Below, one piece after another: positions 2,588-38,001 of a stretch of DNA of 47,905 nucleotides. This DNA comes from Deltaproteobacteria bacterium (lineage in GTDB: Bacteria > Desulfobacterota > Dissulfuribacteria > Dissulfuribacterales > UBA5754). Location: positions 1-47,905 of the forward strand of contig JAINCN010000066.1 of assembly GCA_036574075.1 (NCBI GenBank), written 5' to 3'. Within the stretch, counting starts at the first letter, position 1, and each line of letters starts with the position of its first letter. Both the position numbers and the translations under genes were made by a program. Below the pieces are notes generated by a model. It did not search any database. It saw only the letters and a program-made list of their open reading frames with translations, and was not told the DNA's origin.

Positions 2588-2760
2588 CCTGAATCCGTGA
2601 GCCGACGTCAGGGGTGTTTGTTCCGTGCGGCAAATAGCCCCCGTCCATGGGGGCGGATTTGCCGACGGCGCCCGTCCATGGGCGCCTCACTCCACAAACA
2701 CCCCGGCCGTAGGCTTATTTTGAAAATCAAATGGTTGACTGCATGTCTCACGGATTCAGG
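2588..2760 (+). repeat. Palindromic MITE-like element, copy A (plus orientation)
   Basis: The ends are CCTGAATCCGTGAG and CTCACGGATTCAGG. Inside are a long stem ending TGTTTGT / ACAAACA and two hairpins: GGCAAAT...ATTTGCC and the perfect palindrome GGCGCCCGTCCATGGGCGCC. The copy is flanked by a perfect 5-bp direct repeat TTCAA (2583-2587 and 2761-2765), as expected of transposition. It separates the broken tail of the arsenic operon from the efflux operon and ends 28 bp before the tolC-like start. It belongs to subtype 1 (GACGGCGCCC arm). Confidence 0.9.
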
Positions 2761-13063: not shown

Positions 13064-13090
13064 AGGAGGATTTTTGGCATTTGAGTATAG

Positions 13091-13265
13091 CCTGAATCCG
13101 TGAGCCTACGGCCGGGGTATTTGTTTCGTGCGGCAAATAGCCCCCGTCCATGGGGGCAGATTTGCCGTTCGAGCCCCATCCGTGGGCGCCTCACTCCACA
13201 AATACCCCGGCCGTAGGCTTATGCTGTGAAATCGAAAGGTTGAGTGCATATCTCACGGATTCAGG
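13091..13265 (+). repeat. Palindromic MITE-like element, copy B (plus orientation)
   Basis: This copy has intact 14-bp ends and the cleanest inner stem: CCTACGGCCGGGGTATTTGT (13105-13124) pairs perfectly over 20 bp with its complement near the right side. It carries the subtype-2 arm (GTTCGAGCCCC) in the second hairpin. Flanks are TATAG (13086-13090) and TACAG (13266-13270), a 4/5 match to a target duplication. It lies between the AICAR transformylase stop and the next minus-strand gene, so it is probably transcribed as RNA within that operon. Confidence 0.9.
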
Positions 13266-13300
13266 TACAGGGCCATCACCACAGGGACAGTGAAAAGGCC

Positions 13301-17158: not shown

Positions 17159-17176
17159 TGTGATCCCTCCTTCTTT

Positions 17177-17300
17177 ATCCGTGAGTCGATGTACGAGTTA
17201 AACAGCCCTACGTACATGGTCGCCTGGCTCTGCAAATACCCCGGCTGTCGGCTTATTTCGTGAAATCAAAAGGTTGAGTGCTTAGCCGTTAACTTATACG
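17177..17300 (+). repeat. Palindromic MITE-like element, copy C (decayed, internally deleted)
   Basis: The left end ATCCGTGAG, the right part GCAAATACCCCGGCTGTCGGCT, and the conserved unpaired segment (GTGAAATCAAAAGGTTGAGTGC) are recognisable. Both internal hairpins are lost and the right terminal repeat is degenerate (CCGTTAACTTATACGG). No direct repeat is visible at the flanks. This is the oldest-looking copy, in the divergent gap between the CoA-disulfide reductase and ClpX-like genes. Confidence 0.7.
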
Positions 17301-17520: not shown

Positions 17521-19338
17521 ATGGTTAAAAAGATTGGAGGCGGGGAAGATCGGCCCGGCGGCTCTGGCATGAACGGGCCGATCTCGAGCGATCTTCCGTC
17601 CCAGAAGGATCTGGAACAGGAGATTCGGGACTACCTCGTCAAGAAGTACGGGGGCAAGGTCCGGGTCGTCACCCAGTCGTTCATTCCGGAGCGCAAGGCC
17701 TCTGATGAGGATAGACCCGGCGAGGGCGGAAAGCAGCGGGACAGGTTTGTCTTTGATCTCAAGCCTGAAGATCTTGAGGCCTATCTCAACGAGTACGTCA
17801 TTCGCCAGGACCAGGCGAAGGCCGTGCTCGCGACCAAGGTCTGCACCCATTTCAACCGTGTCGCCTATCTGGCCCGAAGGGGCGGAAACCGCCTCCCGGT
17901 CGGCAACATCAAGAACAACATCATCCTCATCGGCCCGACCGGTGTGGGGAAGACCTATCTCATCAAGCTTATCGCCGCGCGGCTCGGTGTCCCGTTCGTG
18001 AAGGGGGACGCCACCAAGTTCAGCGAGACGGGCTATGTTGGGGCGGACGTGGAGGACCTGGTCCGGGATCTCGTCAAGGAGGCCGACGGTGACATCGAGC
18101 TTGCCCAGCACGGCATCATCTATATAGACGAGATCGACAAGATCGCTGCGCCGTATCACGTGTACGGACCGGATGTCTCTCGCTCTGGGGTTCAGCGGGC
18201 CCTTTTGAAGCTACTGGAAGAGACGGAGGTGAGCCTGCGCATCCCGCACGACCCCATCTCCCAGATCGAGGCCATCGAACGTTATCGAAAGAGCGGCAAA
18301 CGGGAAAAGCAGACCATCAATACCCGCAATATCCTCTTCATCGTGAGCGGGGCCTTTCAGGGTCTGCCGGAGATCATCCGGCGGCGCCTATGCCGTCAGG
18401 GGATCGGCTTCGGGGCCGAACTCGATCTTGGTGAAGAAAGGGAATGGTTGAAGTTTCTGAAACCCCAGGACCTCATCGACTACGGCCTTGAATCCGAGTT
18501 TGTGGGCCGGTTTCCCGTAGTGGCCGTTCTTGACGAGCTTACGGAAAAGGACCTCTATGATATCCTTCGCTCTCCAACATGCGCAGTGATCCAGAGCAAG
18601 AGGCATGATTTCCGGTCCTACGGTATCGATCTTCGCTTCGAGGATGAGGCCCTGAAGCTCCTGGCCCGGCAGGCGGCCGCGGAGCAGACCGGGGCACGGA
18701 GCCTGGTAAGTGTGGTGGAAAAGGCCCTCCTCCCGTTTGAAAAAAGGCTCCCTTCCACGGACATTTCCTACCTTGTGGTCACGAAAAAGGCGGTGGAGGA
18801 CCCGGATGCGGCCCTTGCTGCCCTTCTCAGCGATCCCAGGGATCCCTCCCTTGAGCGCCGTTACGAGGCCGTTCTGGCCGAGGAGCGCAGGCGCTGCAGG
18901 GAAAGGCTTGGGGCTATGGTGCCTGCGTCCTTGGAAAAGGCCGGGGTCGATGTCACTGAGCCCCGCCTTGCCTGTGTCTGCGAGCTCGTCCTTTCGGAGG
19001 ACCTGGATCCTGCGGCCGCATGCGAGGAGGTACTCAGCCGCATTCGACAGATCCGGGGTTATGAATCCTCCTTTTACCATCGCTGCGGCCTGCATATATC
19101 TTTTGACAACGAGGCCATCGATGCCCTGCTTACAGCCAATCTCCTGGACGCACAGAGACTCAACGCCCAGTGTGAGAGGATCTGTAACATCCTCGAATAC
19201 GGGCTCACGCTCGCTCGCGAGAGGCAGGCCCAGACAGAATTCGTCATTCCGGTAGAGGCGGTGAGGAACACGGAACTCTACATCAACCGCCTGATCCGTT
19301 CCTGTTACCGACCAGAAGGAAAGACCGAGGCCCGATGA
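17521..19338 (+). CDS. ClpX-like AAA+ ATPase without zinc domain, with C-terminal extension
   Basis: 605 residues from ATG 17521; the start is uncertain (GTG 17464, ATG 17494 and ATG 17569 are also in frame). Walker A GPTGVGKT is at 138-145, the pore loop GYVG at 171-174, and Walker B IYIDEID with Asp203-Glu204. The ClpP-docking IGF loop is at 295-297 (RQGIGFGAEL) and sensor 2 GARS has Arg393. These match ClpX closely, yet the N-terminal zinc-binding domain is missing and replaced by about 80 charged residues. About 170 residues of unrecognised helical sequence follow the AAA+ small domain. It may be a ClpP-associated or stand-alone unfoldase with different adaptor specificity. It overlaps a degenerate receiver-domain gene (ATGA). 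Confidence 0.85.
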   Translation: MVKKIGGGEDRPGGSGMNGPISSDLPSQKDLEQEIRDYLVKKYGGKVRVVTQSFIPERKASDEDRPGEGGKQRDRFVFDLKPEDLEAYLNEYVIRQDQAKAVLATKVCTHFNRVAYLARRGGNRLPVGNIKNNIILIGPTGVGKTYLIKLIAARLGVPFVKGDATKFSETGYVGADVEDLVRDLVKEADGDIELAQHGIIYIDEIDKIAAPYHVYGPDVSRSGVQRALLKLLEETEVSLRIPHDPISQIEAIERYRKSGKREKQTINTRNILFIVSGAFQGLPEIIRRRLCRQGIGFGAELDLGEEREWLKFLKPQDLIDYGLESEFVGRFPVVAVLDELTEKDLYDILRSPTCAVIQSKRHDFRSYGIDLRFEDEALKLLARQAAAEQTGARSLVSVVEKALLPFEKRLPSTDISYLVVTKKAVEDPDAALAALLSDPRDPSLERRYEAVLAEERRRCRERLGAMVPASLEKAGVDVTEPRLACVCELVLSEDLDPAAACEEVLSRIRQIRGYESSFYHRCGLHISFDNEAIDALLTANLLDAQRLNAQCERICNILEYGLTLARERQAQTEFVIPVEAVRNTELYINRLIRSCYRPEGKTEAR

Positions 19339-26202: not shown

Positions 26203-26255
26203 CATAACCCCTCTACCCCTCTACCCCTCTAATCCTCTATCTCTCTAATCCTTTA
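26203..26255. repeat. Pyrimidine-rich low-complexity tract around palindromic copy D
   Basis: CCCCTCTA and CTAATCCT units are tandemly repeated and resume after the element (26430-26462, TTTAATCC units). The tract lies in the convergent gap between tatC and the radical SAM gene and encodes the last codons of the latter. The element has inserted into the middle of it. Confidence 0.7.
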
Positions 26256-26429
26256 CCTGAATCCGTGAGCCTACGGCCGGGGTATTTGTTTCGTGCGGCA
26301 AATAGCCCCCATCCATGGGGGCGGATTTGCCGACGGCGCCCGTCCATGGGTGCCTCACTCCACAAATACCCCGGCCGTAGGCTTATGCTGTGAAATCGAA
26401 GGGTTGAGTGCATATCTCACGGATTCAGG
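26256..26429 (+). repeat. Palindromic MITE-like element, copy D (plus orientation)
   Basis: This copy has intact CCTGAATCCGTGAG / CTCACGGATTCAGG ends, the inner stem CCTACGGCCGGGGTATTTGT with its exact complement, and two hairpins of subtype 1 (GACGGCGCCC). A perfect 5-bp direct repeat CTTTA flanks it (26251-26255 and 26430-26434), the clearest target-site duplication together with copies A and E. It lies between convergent genes. Confidence 0.93.
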
Positions 26430-26447
26430 CTTTAATCCTTTACCCCT

Positions 26448-28244
26448 TTAATCCTCTAATCCTTTTAATCGTATGGCGAGACTGAGAATCTCGTTTCCCT
26501 CCCGGAACATGAGCCTTTTCTTTACGAGATCCGTGACGAAGGCATCCAGCTCGTGCTGCCGGCGCCCTTTTGCAAGCCCGGTGACCTCTTCCCATGGGGT
26601 GATGTCCAGGCAGGCGAGATAGATCTCCCTCGACAGTCCGGTAAGCCGATGGGTCAGGACCCGGCCGTCAGGGAGGACCTGGCGGATCTCGATGAATTCT
26701 TTTCCATCCCGGTACGTGAGGAGTTTTCCAGCGGCCCTGGTTTGTTTCTGACTCTGTTGCCAGCGAGCGAGTTCCTTTTCGACCTCCTTCCAGAGGGTCT
26801 TCTGTCGCCTCCGATCCCCTTGGTATGACAGAATGAAGGGGGAGATCGAGGACGCGAGCTCTATGGGAAAGAGATCGGCGTAAGATGGATGGGCTTTGAT
26901 CCTCGTGATCTTGAATCGGGATGGGTCCCTTTCCACTGCGCTTCCGGTCCCAAGCCAGAAGGAGACGGCCTTCAGCGGACGGAAAGGCCATACGAACCGG
27001 AGTACGTGGAGGGTCTCCTGGATCTCGTCTTCCGTGCTCCCCGGAAAGTGGAGGATGAGGTTTCCGGACAGACGTATGCCGTGTTCCTCGGCATGGCGCA
27101 TGGCTGCTACGTTGTCTATGGCCTTAGTCCCCTTGCCGAGTCTCTTCAAGAGGGAGGTGCTCAGGGCCTCGATCCCCACCTGGACCTCCCGGAGGCCGCC
27201 TTGGGCCATCTCTGCCCATTCCTCACGGGTGTACACGGCCCGGAGCTCCGCAAAGAATCGATAGTCCCGGCCGTGTTTCTGGGTTTCCAGAAAAAGCCTT
27301 GGTGTCTGCCTGCGGGGAAGGGCATTGTCCATGAACGCGAAGTCGATCGTCCCATATCGGCGGGAAAGTGTGTCGATCTCACGGGACATCCGTTCCACGG
27401 ATTTCATCCGGTAGCCCGACCACTGGAGGTTGAGATTGCAGAAGGCGCATTGACCCCACCAGCAGCCCCGGGACATCTCCACGGGAAGGACGGGCCGGAA
27501 TCTCTTGCCGGGCGGAAGAAGGCCCAGGTCCTGGAAAAAGTCGTCGAAGTCCGGGCAGGGAAGGGAGTCCATGTCCGGGACCTGGGAGAAGGAGAAAGGG
27601 GTCCTGTCGTCACTGCGGGCCGATACCCCAGAGGGGTGCGAGGGGCCTTCGCCTGCAATGTGCTGTATGAGGCCGATGAGGGGAAGTTCGCCCTCTCCGT
27701 GTATCACGTAGTCGATTTCGGGAAAGCGGGAGAGCAGGGAAGGCCCGGTCAAACCGGCGCAGCCTGGGCCGCCGATGGCAAGGGGTGTTTCGGGCGCGAG
27801 TTCCTTGATCCTTCGAGCAAGGTAGAGGGCAGCTGTCAGCTGGTTGATGGAGATCGAGATGCCCACGAGCCCGTAACGCCGCCAGGGGACCGATTCGATG
27901 AAGGCATTGAGGACCTGGACGACCTTTTCCCTGACCGATCGCGGATCCGGGCCCAGGGGCGGAACACCACCCCTTTTTCTCAAGGAAACCTTAAAGAGTC
28001 TGTCGCAGCGGTCGGACATCTCCGGAAAGAGGATGCCGGCGCAGACCGCTTCCGATGCCCATCCCGACTGGCTGATGGCAAGGTAGTCGCCGAACCCCAC
28101 GGCCTCCGCCACGAATAGATAAGGGTGAAAGGCGCGGATCGTATGTGTTGGGGCATTTTTGCGGATAAATGCAGTAAGGGTGGCAAGCTGTATGGATGGC
28201 CGGTTGAAGAGGGGCCAAGGAGGGGCGATTAGGGCGATCTCCAC
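26448..28244 (-). CDS. B12-dependent radical SAM protein, RiPP-maturation type
   Basis: 598 residues. The N-terminal part (1-220) is a cobalamin-binding-like domain starting ALIAPPWPLFNRPSIQLATL. A radical SAM core follows with cysteines in SRGCWWGQCAFCNLN, spaced C-x4-C-x2-C rather than the canonical CxxxCxxC. The C-terminus (TGLSREIYLACLD onward) looks like a small winged-helix domain. The layout and the RGCWWG motif match radical SAM proteins that modify ribosomal peptides (RiPP maturation protein 1 group). No precursor peptide was found beside it. It starts at GTG 28244 downstream of htpX, possibly co-transcribed. B12 methyltransferase activity is inferred from the family. Confidence 0.75.
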   Translation of the reverse strand: MEIALIAPPWPLFNRPSIQLATLTAFIRKNAPTHTIRAFHPYLFVAEAVGFGDYLAISQSGWASEAVCAGILFPEMSDRCDRLFKVSLRKRGGVPPLGPDPRSVREKVVQVLNAFIESVPWRRYGLVGISISINQLTAALYLARRIKELAPETPLAIGGPGCAGLTGPSLLSRFPEIDYVIHGEGELPLIGLIQHIAGEGPSHPSGVSARSDDRTPFSFSQVPDMDSLPCPDFDDFFQDLGLLPPGKRFRPVLPVEMSRGCWWGQCAFCNLNLQWSGYRMKSVERMSREIDTLSRRYGTIDFAFMDNALPRRQTPRLFLETQKHGRDYRFFAELRAVYTREEWAEMAQGGLREVQVGIEALSTSLLKRLGKGTKAIDNVAAMRHAEEHGIRLSGNLILHFPGSTEDEIQETLHVLRFVWPFRPLKAVSFWLGTGSAVERDPSRFKITRIKAHPSYADLFPIELASSISPFILSYQGDRRRQKTLWKEVEKELARWQQSQKQTRAAGKLLTYRDGKEFIEIRQVLPDGRVLTHRLTGLSREIYLACLDITPWEEVTGLAKGRRQHELDAFVTDLVKKRLMFREGNEILSLAIRLKGLED

Positions 28245-30967: not shown

Positions 30968-31141
30968 CCTGAATCCGTGAGATATGCACTCAACCTTTCG
31001 ATTTCACAGCATAAGCCTACGGCTGGGGTATTTGTGGAGTGAGGCGCCCATGGACGGGCGCCGTCGGCAAATCTGCCCCCATGGACGGGGGCTATTTGCC
31101 GCACGAAACAAATACCCCGGCCGTAGGCTCACGGATTCAGG
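30968..31141 (-). repeat. Palindromic MITE-like element, copy E (minus orientation)
   Basis: A complete subtype-1 copy in reverse orientation, 174 bp, flanked by a perfect 5-bp repeat GAAAA (30963-30967 and 31142-31146). It fills most of the divergent fbp-glnE promoter region and ends about 32 bp before the glnE reading frame proper. Insertion here must have displaced or replaced the original glnE promoter. One frame through the element stays open into glnE but is not considered coding. Confidence 0.93.
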
Positions 31142-31173
31142 GAAAAGTTTGGAGGGACAGAAATTCCATTTTT

Positions 31174-34113
31174 TTGTCTGTGCTGGGCCTTTCACTCGAC
31201 CAGGATCTGCCCGTGAGGACTTTCCAGCTTCCTGACAAGGCCGTTCCCATTCCAGATGGGCTGAAGGAGGCCGGAAAAGACCGTCTTCACGCCTTTCTCG
31301 CCTCTGCGGATGCAGCCCGTGTATCCGTTTCCTCCCTGCCGATCGATTGTCTTGAGCGCGTTTTTGCCGTGAGCGATTTCGTGGCCCAGGCGGCCATTCG
31401 GGATCCATCTATATTTTGCGGACTCTTTTCTTGCGGATACATGGATCGATCCATGGCTGAGGTAGAGTATGGCCGGATCCTTCGGGAAGCCCTGGCGAAC
31501 GAGATGGGCGGAGAGGATTCCCTTATGCGGGCGCTCAGGCGGCTGCGGCGCCGGGAGATGGTCAGGATTGCCTGGAGGGATCTTACAGGTGTGAGCAGCC
31601 TTTATGAGACCATGGGAGAGCTCTCGGGGCTTGCCCGCTCTGTCCTCGACGTGGCGGTTTCCCGTCTCCAGGACGAACTCGTGCTACGGTTCGGGGCCCC
31701 TTGCGGGGTAGACGGTTCGTCCCAGTCCCTCGTGGTCTTCGGCCTGGGAAAGCTCGGGGCTGGGGAGCTTAACTTCTCGTCAGATATCGATCTTGTTTTC
31801 GCATATCCGGAGTCGGGTGAGACCCGCGGCGGGAAGGATGGCGTCTCGAACCACGAATTTTTCGACCGTCTCGTCCGGCGTCTTATCCGGATCATGGGCG
31901 CGGCCACAGAGGAAGGTTTTGTCTTCAGGGTGGATACCAGGCTTCGGCCTTTCGGGGAGGCAGGCCCCCTCGTCATGAGTTTCGACGGTCTTCTCGACTA
32001 TTACGAGATCCACGGCCGGGAGTGGGAACGCTACGCGTGGATCAAGGCCGGGGTCGCGGCCGGGGACAGGACGGCAGGGGAGAGATTTCTCGAGGACATG
32101 CGCCCCTTCGTCTATAGGCGGTATCTGGATTTCGGGGCGTTTGACGCCATTCGGGACATGAAGGGCATGATCGCCAAGGAGGCGCGGAAAAAGGGCCTTC
32201 TGGATAACATCAAGCTCGGATCCGGCGGTATCCGGGAGATCGAGTTCCTGTGCCAGACGTTCCAGCTCATCCACGGTGGGCGGGATCCGGGTCTGAGGGC
32301 CAGGGCAGTCCTCCATATCCTTCCGGCCCTGGCGGATCGGGGGCTTCTGTCCGGACAGGCGGCAAGCGGACTTGCCGAGGCCTACGTCTTTCTCCGGATG
32401 GTGGAAAACCGCCTTCAGGAATACGCAGATCAGCAGACCCAGGAACTTCCCTCAGACGATTTAGGGCGCCTGCGCCTGGCCTTTTCCCTCGGCTATGAGG
32501 GATGGGAGGATTTCCATCAGGATCTCCAAAGACACCGTCACCATGTGAGCGAGTGCTTCGAGCGCCTTGTTCTTCGGCAGAGGTGCAAGACCGTTCGCGG
32601 GTCCCAAAAGGGGGCATTGGGAGATCTCTGGCATCATGTCCTGGAAGGAGAGGAGGCGGAGTTGGAACTCGCCGGTGCTGGCTTTGAGGATCCGGCCCGC
32701 GCCCTTCGCATCATCAGGGACCTTTGGGATTCCTCTGCGGTCCGGGCCGCAAGCGCCATTGCCCGCCAAAGGCTCGATCGACTCATGCCCGCCCTCCTTC
32801 TTGCAGTTGCGGGCACGGAGAGGCCGACGGACGTACTCCTTCGAATGGCCAGGATCGTCGAGGTCATCGCCCGAAGGAGCGTCTATGTCTCGCTCCTCGT
32901 GGAGAATCCGGAGGTCCTCTCCCGGCTCGTCTCCCTATGCGCCCAAAGTTCCTGGATCGCCACGCAGGTCTCCCGCTTCCCCATTCTCCTGGATGAACTC
33001 ATTGCCCCCGAATCCCTCTTTGCGCCTCTATCCCGCGAGGCCCTCGAAAAGGAGCTGGCCCTCCGCCTCGGGGCCGTTCCGCCTGAGGACGAGGAGCTGG
33101 TCATGGACGAATTGCGCCGTTTTCGGTTGGGAAACGTCCTGCGGGTGGCGGTCGAGGACATCACGGGTGTCACTCCCCTCATGCGGGTGAGTGATCACCT
33201 GACGGACATTGCCGAGGTGGTGCTTGCCGCGGCATGCGACCTTGCATGGGATTATCTCGTCCACCGCCACGGCCGGCCCCCGACCTGCTCACCGGCTGGA
33301 GGCCAGGATGGCAAGGGTTTTCTCGTGGTTGCGTACGGAAAGTTCGGTGGGATCGAGCTCGGTTACGGCTCGGATCTCGATCTCGTCTTCATCCATGCGG
33401 GTGAACCGGGAACGCGGACGCCAGGTCCCAGGCCCCTTGAAACCTCCCTTTTCTATGCCCGCCTCGGCCAGCGGATCCTTCACATCCTTACGACGAGGAC
33501 ATCCATCGGGACCCTCTATCCTGTGGACATGCGCCTTAGGCCGAGCGGTGAGGCAGGACTCCTCGTCTCCAGGATGGATGCCTTTGCGGACTATCAGCGC
33601 AAAGACGCCTGGACATGGGAACATCAGGCCCTTGTGAGGGCCCGTCCTGTCGCCGGAGACGAACGCCTTGCAGAGAGTTTTTCGGAGTTGCGACAAGAGA
33701 TCCTCACCCGGCCCCGGGATCCGTCTGCCCTCAGGGAGGAGGTGCGGGGCATGAGGGCCCGGATGGCGACCGGAAGGAAAAAGACCCCCCCCGGCCTTTT
33801 CGATCTTAAGCACGACCCAGGAGGGATCGTGGACATCGAGTTTCTCGTACAGTTCTTCGTGCTCTCCGGGGCGAACCGTTTTCCCGCCATCGCCCGCTGG
33901 ACGGACAACGTCCGCATCCTCGAAGAGGTGGCTAAGGCTGGCATGATCCCCAACGAAAAGGCCCTTTTTCTCAGGGATTCCTATCTCTTACTCCGAAGCG
34001 GGGTCCATCGGTCCGACCTAAGGGAAGAACCGCCGCTTGTGCCCGAAAGGGAGTTCGAAGAGATCCGGCAAGGGGTGAAAGGCATCTGGCGGGAGATCCT
34101 CGGGGATGGATGA
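31174..34113 (+). CDS. glnE: Bifunctional glutamine synthetase adenylyltransferase / deadenylase
   Basis: About 979 residues from a tentative TTG 31174. GGAGGG lies 17 nt upstream of it and 11 nt from an in-frame ATT at 31168, so the exact start is open. The protein has two nucleotidyltransferase domains. The N-terminal deadenylase has GKLGAGELNFSSDIDLVF (near residue 190) and RVDTRLRPFGEAGPL. The C-terminal adenylylase has GKFGGIELGYGSDLDLVF (near 720) and PVDMRLRPSGEAGLL. It adjusts glutamine synthetase activity to nitrogen status under PII control. No glnA or glnB is in the window. Copy E, inserted just upstream, probably forms part of its leader. Confidence 0.93.
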   Translation: MSVLGLSLDQDLPVRTFQLPDKAVPIPDGLKEAGKDRLHAFLASADAARVSVSSLPIDCLERVFAVSDFVAQAAIRDPSIFCGLFSCGYMDRSMAEVEYGRILREALANEMGGEDSLMRALRRLRRREMVRIAWRDLTGVSSLYETMGELSGLARSVLDVAVSRLQDELVLRFGAPCGVDGSSQSLVVFGLGKLGAGELNFSSDIDLVFAYPESGETRGGKDGVSNHEFFDRLVRRLIRIMGAATEEGFVFRVDTRLRPFGEAGPLVMSFDGLLDYYEIHGREWERYAWIKAGVAAGDRTAGERFLEDMRPFVYRRYLDFGAFDAIRDMKGMIAKEARKKGLLDNIKLGSGGIREIEFLCQTFQLIHGGRDPGLRARAVLHILPALADRGLLSGQAASGLAEAYVFLRMVENRLQEYADQQTQELPSDDLGRLRLAFSLGYEGWEDFHQDLQRHRHHVSECFERLVLRQRCKTVRGSQKGALGDLWHHVLEGEEAELELAGAGFEDPARALRIIRDLWDSSAVRAASAIARQRLDRLMPALLLAVAGTERPTDVLLRMARIVEVIARRSVYVSLLVENPEVLSRLVSLCAQSSWIATQVSRFPILLDELIAPESLFAPLSREALEKELALRLGAVPPEDEELVMDELRRFRLGNVLRVAVEDITGVTPLMRVSDHLTDIAEVVLAAACDLAWDYLVHRHGRPPTCSPAGGQDGKGFLVVAYGKFGGIELGYGSDLDLVFIHAGEPGTRTPGPRPLETSLFYARLGQRILHILTTRTSIGTLYPVDMRLRPSGEAGLLVSRMDAFADYQRKDAWTWEHQALVRARPVAGDERLAESFSELRQEILTRPRDPSALREEVRGMRARMATGRKKTPPGLFDLKHDPGGIVDIEFLVQFFVLSGANRFPAIARWTDNVRILEEVAKAGMIPNEKALFLRDSYLLLRSGVHRSDLREEPPLVPEREFEEIRQGVKGIWREILGDG

Positions 34114-34666: not shown

Positions 34667-34842
34667 CCTGAATCCGTGAGATATGCACTCAACCTTTCGA
34701 TTTCACAGCATAAGCCGACGGCGGGGGTATTTGTGGATGGAGGCGCCCATGGACGGGGCTCGAACGGCAAATCCGCCCCCATGGACCGGGGGCTATTTGC
34801 TGCACGGAACAAATACCCCAGCCGTCGGCCCACGGATTCAGT
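34667..34842 (-). repeat. Palindromic MITE-like element, copy F (minus orientation)
   Basis: A subtype-2 copy (GGGGCTCGAAC arm on the plus strand). Its inner stem reads CCGACGG / CCGTCGG where copy B reads CCTACGG / CCGTAGG, a compensated base-pair change. One terminal repeat is CCCACGGATTCAG, with the final G changed to T. Flanks CCTAT (34662-34666) and CCTCT (34843-34847) are a 4/5 match. It lies between the DUF5658-like gene and the znuA relic. Confidence 0.88.
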
Positions 34843-37815: not shown

Positions 37816-38001
37816 CCTGAAGTCTTGAGATATGCATTCAACCATTTGATTTTATAAAAAATAATAAAATATGTCTGCTGGGTATGTGTGTTTGTGGATG
37901 GAGACGTCCATAGGGGGGCTCGAACGGCTAATCCGCCCCCATGGACGGGGGGTATTTGCCGCACGGAACGAATACCCCGGCCGTTGGCCCACGGATTCAG
38001 G
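37816..38001 (-). repeat. Palindromic MITE-like element, copy G (minus orientation, diverged)
   Basis: 186 bp. The right end GGCCCACGGATTCAGG and one inner arm CGAATACCCCGGCCGTTGG are clear. The other end (CCTGAAGTCTTGAG) and arm are heavily mutated, with an AT-rich stretch in place of part of the conserved segment. It has the subtype-2 arm (GGGGCTCGAAC). Flanks AATAT and ATGAT match poorly, so this is an old copy. It lies in the divergent gap between the cytochrome c3 and zinc-ribbon genes; the rest of 37721-38142 holds no gene. Confidence 0.82.

Follow-up and report, generated by a model that had tools for sequence, protein, structure and literature searches.

The 175-bp element at positions 13091–13265 of the window (the whole stretch of DNA analysed here, 47,905 nucleotides) belongs to a genus-specific MITE family. 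Its inner stem carries real and recurrent compensated base changes, more of them than the preliminary description had seen, and there is no evidence that the folded state is maintained in resident copies. Covariation is commonly read as proof of a selected structure; in this MITE a palindrome covaries without a detectable pairing constraint in its resident copies, which calls for caution when structures are assigned to repeats. The best explanation, which we hold to be somewhat more probable than all others taken together, is that one arm was copied onto the other in source elements and that the result was spread by transposition.

The Element and Its Predicted Fold

The element occupies exactly 13091–13265, as first assigned. 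Its 14-bp TIRs enclose an inner inverted repeat of 20 bp as well as internal hairpins (Table 1). Folding both strands, as the preliminary description had proposed, yields very stable predicted structures, with a z-score of about −11 each: −108.5 kcal/mol (z −11.1) for the forward RNA and −104.1 (z −11.0) for the reverse-strand RNA, and the DNA fold is likewise far beyond chance (z −11.5). The predicted fold has an outer stem of 13–14 bp and an inner stem of 20–21 bp; the inner loop contains two hairpins, and the 33-bp segment forms a weak one. Thus, the outer stem, inner stem, and two hairpins of the topology initially described are retained, but its four-way junction gives way to two nested three-way junctions. 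Perfectly complementary inner arms, reported earlier for two copies, are indeed seen in those starting at 13091 and 26256.

Table 1. Coordinates of the element, its parts, other copies in the window, and the transposase fragment joined to a MITE terminus. Positions refer to the window unless a contig handle is given.
Feature	Position	Strand	Evidence or observation
Complete 175-bp MITE copy	13091..13265	+	Element described here
5-bp target duplication, left copy TATAG	13086..13090	.	G001 has GCAAA (5 bp) between the same flanks
Left TIR CCTGAATCCGTGAG	13091..13104	+	Terminus search of own genome
Left inner-repeat arm, element positions 15–34	13105..13124	+	Continuous with TIR; majority of covarying positions
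Internal hairpin 1 (GGCAAATAGCCCCC...)	13126..13172	+	Near-invariant, little covariation
Internal hairpin 2	13173..13189	+	Two alternative sequence versions across copies
Right inner-repeat arm, element positions 108–128	13198..13218	+	Fold and covariation
Asymmetric 33-bp segment, inner arm to right TIR	13219..13251	+	Weak hairpin; missing from the 135–144-bp form
Right TIR	13252..13265	-	Sequence match
5-bp target duplication, right copy TACAG	13266..13270	.	One mismatch against left copy TATAG
Copy	2588..2760	+	Pair 29 compensated; pairs 17, 21, 23 mismatched; target duplication TTCAA
Degraded copy fragment	about 17172..17284	+	Sequence match
Copy	26256..26429	+	Inner stem perfect; target duplication CTTTA
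Copy	30968..31141	-	Target duplication GAAAA (+ strand); sister genome G001 without element (GGGAA)
Copy	34667..34842	-	Pair 17 compensated, pair 23 mismatched; G001 without element (5 bp between matches)
Diverged 186-bp copy	37816..38001	-	Sequence match
IS1634-like fragment and MITE right terminus	L219:3300-3534 = G000 C9 about 19000-19233		NF033559

A MITE Family Confined to One Genus

The element is identified as a genus-specific MITE by its TIRs, 5–6-bp target duplications, empty loci in a sister genome, and hundreds of termini; at 175 bp, it is too short for a transposase gene of its own. The terminus CCTGAATCCGTGAG has 405 matches with at most one mismatch in its own 1.99-Mb genome, against 0 for the reversed control pattern, which corresponds to some 200 elements, or about one per 10 kb. 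Counted exactly, the terminus occurs 270 times in this genome and 35 times in G001 (same genus), and it is absent from 44 further genomes of the order. The copies analyzed were collected from searches and sequence stretches and are a subset of all genomic copies. Among 84 core copies, 170–180 bp long and inserted at AT-rich target sites, exact target duplications measure 5 bp in 34 and 6 bp in 12, compared with 0.7 and 0.2 in shuffles. G001 lacks the element at the loci 13091, 30968, and 34667 and has 5 bp there instead, the letters being read directly at the first two (Table 1).

The arms and flanks of a 140-bp copy in G001 match a copy in DIFG01000091.1, labeled ‘Deltaproteobacteria bacterium UBA5754’, which makes it very probable that G001 and this genome are the same. 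Neither plasmids and phages, searched with blastn, nor viral contigs, searched with the exact pattern, gave a MITE match. Beyond the genus, the sole strong match is to the end of a contig attributed to Lentisphaera (L021:4832–4898): this contig, from a MAG recovered from a sulfidic cave, ends within a copy of the element, which probably reflects misbinning rather than transfer.

The main form of the MITE, 171–178 bp in length, has a 33-bp segment on the right side only. A 135–144-bp form (L039, L140, and L149) is devoid of this segment and has a TIR of 34 bp, which identifies the inner stem as a continuation of the TIR. A 206-bp copy that has the segment in both arms (L060), the only one symmetric in this way, was set aside because of its position at a contig end, and so was a possible shared insertion in L011 and L027 (one-base offset, contig end). 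Three copies (L042:358–571, L053:980–1186, and L040:521–724) adjoin or sit in the terminal part of another copy, as nested or tandem insertions.

Compensated Changes in the Inner Stem

Double changes were found at inner-stem pairs 17, 18, 21, 22, 23, 24, 29, and 31 in an alignment of 82 copies, and compensated changes at these eight pairs fill 79 cells (74–82 copies). Cells changed on both sides number 119 in 74 copies, versus 48.5 in shuffled data (reached in 0 of 500 shuffles) and 11–19 with slid partners. The change described earlier at the third pair in the copy at 34667 is present on both arms of pair 17, and the double change in the copy at 2588 is present on both arms of pair 29, each giving G-C; left out of that description were the uncompensated mismatch of the former copy and the three mismatched pairs of the latter (Table 1). 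Some of these changes separate nearly identical copies. L009 and L011 differ at only three positions, two of which make up pair 17; L088:1508 carries a private change of pair 18 from A-T to T-A; private or near-private double changes occur at pairs 17, 18, and 31; and compensated changes are found among copy pairs with 3–5 total differences. Two copies have a one-base insertion on both arms. Across the 8 variable pairs, nine arm haplotypes are identical on both arms, and arm hybrids between subfamilies are present among the copies.

On a tree from all sites, the inner stem has 15 same-branch changes from one Watson–Crick pair to another (null mean 3.0, maximum 11); when the tree is built from non-stem sites (the loop tree), the inner stem has 27 such changes versus a null of 3.7. 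The covariation, which beats both the shuffles and the tree null, is a property of the inner stem and not of the outer TIR, which shows none: same-branch double changes amount to 0 in the outer stem and to 4 and 2 in the hairpins (null about 1.1). An R-scape-like tree-based test over all pairs, along the lines of the check suggested in the preliminary description, returned no pair of the structure at E<0.05 (best pair 17-125, E 4.65), and the alleles behind its strongest signals are linked within subfamilies and lie outside the stem. The pairs covary, and the whole-alignment test certifies no structure.

Proposed Arm-to-Arm Copying in Source Elements

The preliminary description listed gene conversion between the arms, as an explanation of the matches, among the outcomes that would refute it, and this process has direct support. 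In five copies, drawn from both genomes (L026, L051, L063:1693, L144, and L152), the loop is inverted between the inner arms, and alignment identity rises from 64–71% as found to 82–92% when the loop is flipped back; these copies are not especially well paired. The inverted loops prove exchange between the arms, not that every compensated pair originated in this way, and the inversion in L026 is possibly an assembly error, since this copy, like L060, is located at the end of a contig. We favor arm copying because of these inversions, the compensated changes between near-identical copies, and the offset of the right inner arm, which lies 33 bp deeper within the element than its left counterpart.

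In the mechanism we propose, the MITE, a short non-autonomous DNA transposon whose long inverted arms make the fold inevitable, would be moved in trans by a transposase. Now and then, while the element replicates or transposes, a template switch or gene conversion at the hairpin would overwrite one inner arm with the sequence of the other, and this would be the main source of matched changes; the corrected source elements would then be amplified as subfamilies. Inserted copies decay in pairing at about the background rate, as far as the data can resolve. One caution concerns the loop tree, on which loops exchanged between subfamilies could look like same-branch double changes; the count falls from 27 to 15 when all sites are used.

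The same pattern might instead result from selection on source elements, if transposition required paired or identical arms, whether as a cruciform, as a hairpin in single-stranded DNA, or to provide each end with a subterminal transposase site, such that only matched variants spread and residents decay neutrally. The outer TIRs are strongly conserved across copies, and 40 close copy pairs have almost no common mismatches, which indicates that the source elements had intact arms and may mean that they needed perfect ones; intact source arms fit both selection on sources and repeated arm correction. However, the 33-bp displacement of the right inner arm from its TIR breaks the symmetry of the ends and argues against a symmetric transposase site, the appearance of compensated changes within 3–5 total differences is faster than a two-step route suggests, and loop inversion shows that the arms do exchange. 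We therefore regard selection on source elements as unlikely, albeit worth keeping in mind. It is more improbable still that few old matched arm haplotypes were copied and spread by exchange, with few independent events, an ancestry that would agree with the negative all-pairs test, the linked subfamily blocks outside the stem, and the arm hybrids, but not with the private and near-private double changes or with the surplus of same-branch events that both trees show.

Pairing in Resident Copies

Selection on the fold, the central claim of the preliminary description, is not established. Private substitutions per site are 0.82 in the outer stem, 0.71 in the inner stem, and 0.55–0.89 elsewhere, and alleles present in at most two copies are about equally dense in stems and outside (1.34 per stem site versus 1.55 per other site, p = 0.28). 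The majority of private stem substitutions break the pair, with 13 leading to G-T and 10 to A-C; the inner stem contains 33 G-T and 43 A-C combinations, so G-T is not favored over A-C, as it would be with an RNA-strand bias. Copies with more rare changes at other positions also have more stem mismatches (rho 0.55 overall; 0.43, p = 3e-4, for copies of the own genome). Within the power of the data, pairing in resident copies erodes about as fast as the background.

These figures also weigh against an RNA-level function, whereby a transcribed hairpin (a terminator, RNase III site, or mRNA stabilizer) would be selected in resident copies. The fold is very stable on both strands, the copy at 13091–13265 lies immediately 3′ of a gene resembling purH (PF01808), and RNA-level roles have been proposed for other bacterial MITEs, e.g., NEMIS (PMC2229807). 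Nonetheless, Rfam gave 0 matches in the window at the gathering threshold, no terminator-like or promoter-like site was found, rare changes are as dense in stems as outside them, the inner stem has no G-T excess, and three loci of the window lack the element in the sister species, all of which makes such a function very unlikely.

Relation to Known Systems

The element resembles bacterial MITEs such as Correia/NEMIS, RUP, ERIC, QMITE2, and Chunjie in its length of under about 250 bp, its TIRs, target duplication, and high copy number, and its long predicted hairpins (PMC10969869, PMC2229807). It differs from them in its own TIR sequence, its 5–6-bp duplication, its confinement here to one genus, its nested inner repeat, the coexistence of asymmetric 175-bp and symmetric 135–144-bp forms, and its loop inversions.

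A second likeness is to template switching in rRNA hairpins, a process that copies one arm onto the other, yields multi-base compensated changes, and can be recognized by inverted loops (Monttinen and Loytynoja 2022, PMC8794818). In that study, a loop inversion together with a compensated change is the strongest possible support for template switching, and such combined cases are extremely rare in rRNA, whereas loops of about 70 nt are inverted in 5 copies of the MITE. The rRNA genes are under strong structural selection; here, the stems lie in a mobile repeat. It is tempting, at slightly less than an even chance, to see the MITE family as a replicated natural record of template switching, with compensated changes and ~70-nt loop inversions arising without selection on the fold. 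With its many copies, the family lends itself to counts of arm-copying and loop-inversion events.

Candidate Transposases

No transposase with matching ends was found, and none was found intact in the own assembly: PF01609 transposases had zero matches in the own genome, and none of the 20 stretches examined has an autonomous copy between unpaired termini. IS1634 elements generate 5–6-bp target duplications. An IS1634-like transposase fragment (NF033559, E = 5.9e-7) is fused directly to a MITE right terminus (Table 1), possibly a trace of the parent insertion sequence, and IS1634 is a lead because this fragment abuts the terminus and the duplication is 5–6 bp, but an intact IS1634 copy was not found, and the MITE TIR is absent from eight IS1634 relatives examined in related genomes of the order. 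The IS1380 family has CC ends and 4–5-bp duplications, and two remnants of its transposase are present in the own genome (L103:1205–1858 and L104:1271–2010), the first flanked on both sides by MITE pieces. IS1380 was rejected as a parent, as the common end of the two remnants is CCCAAATTATGCA and not CCTGAATCCGTGAG.

Insertion Contexts in the Window

Apart from one fragment, the window contains six copies that are full or nearly so (Table 1). The listed start of a glnE-like ORF (31039–34113) falls within the copy at 30968–31141 (window 31039–31141); the actual start probably lies further inside, unless the MITE insertion altered it. Between tatC-like and radical-SAM genes, an array of ~8-bp units (CTCTAATC / CCTTTACC) is split by the copy at 26256 into two parts, 26203–26254 and 26430–26473.
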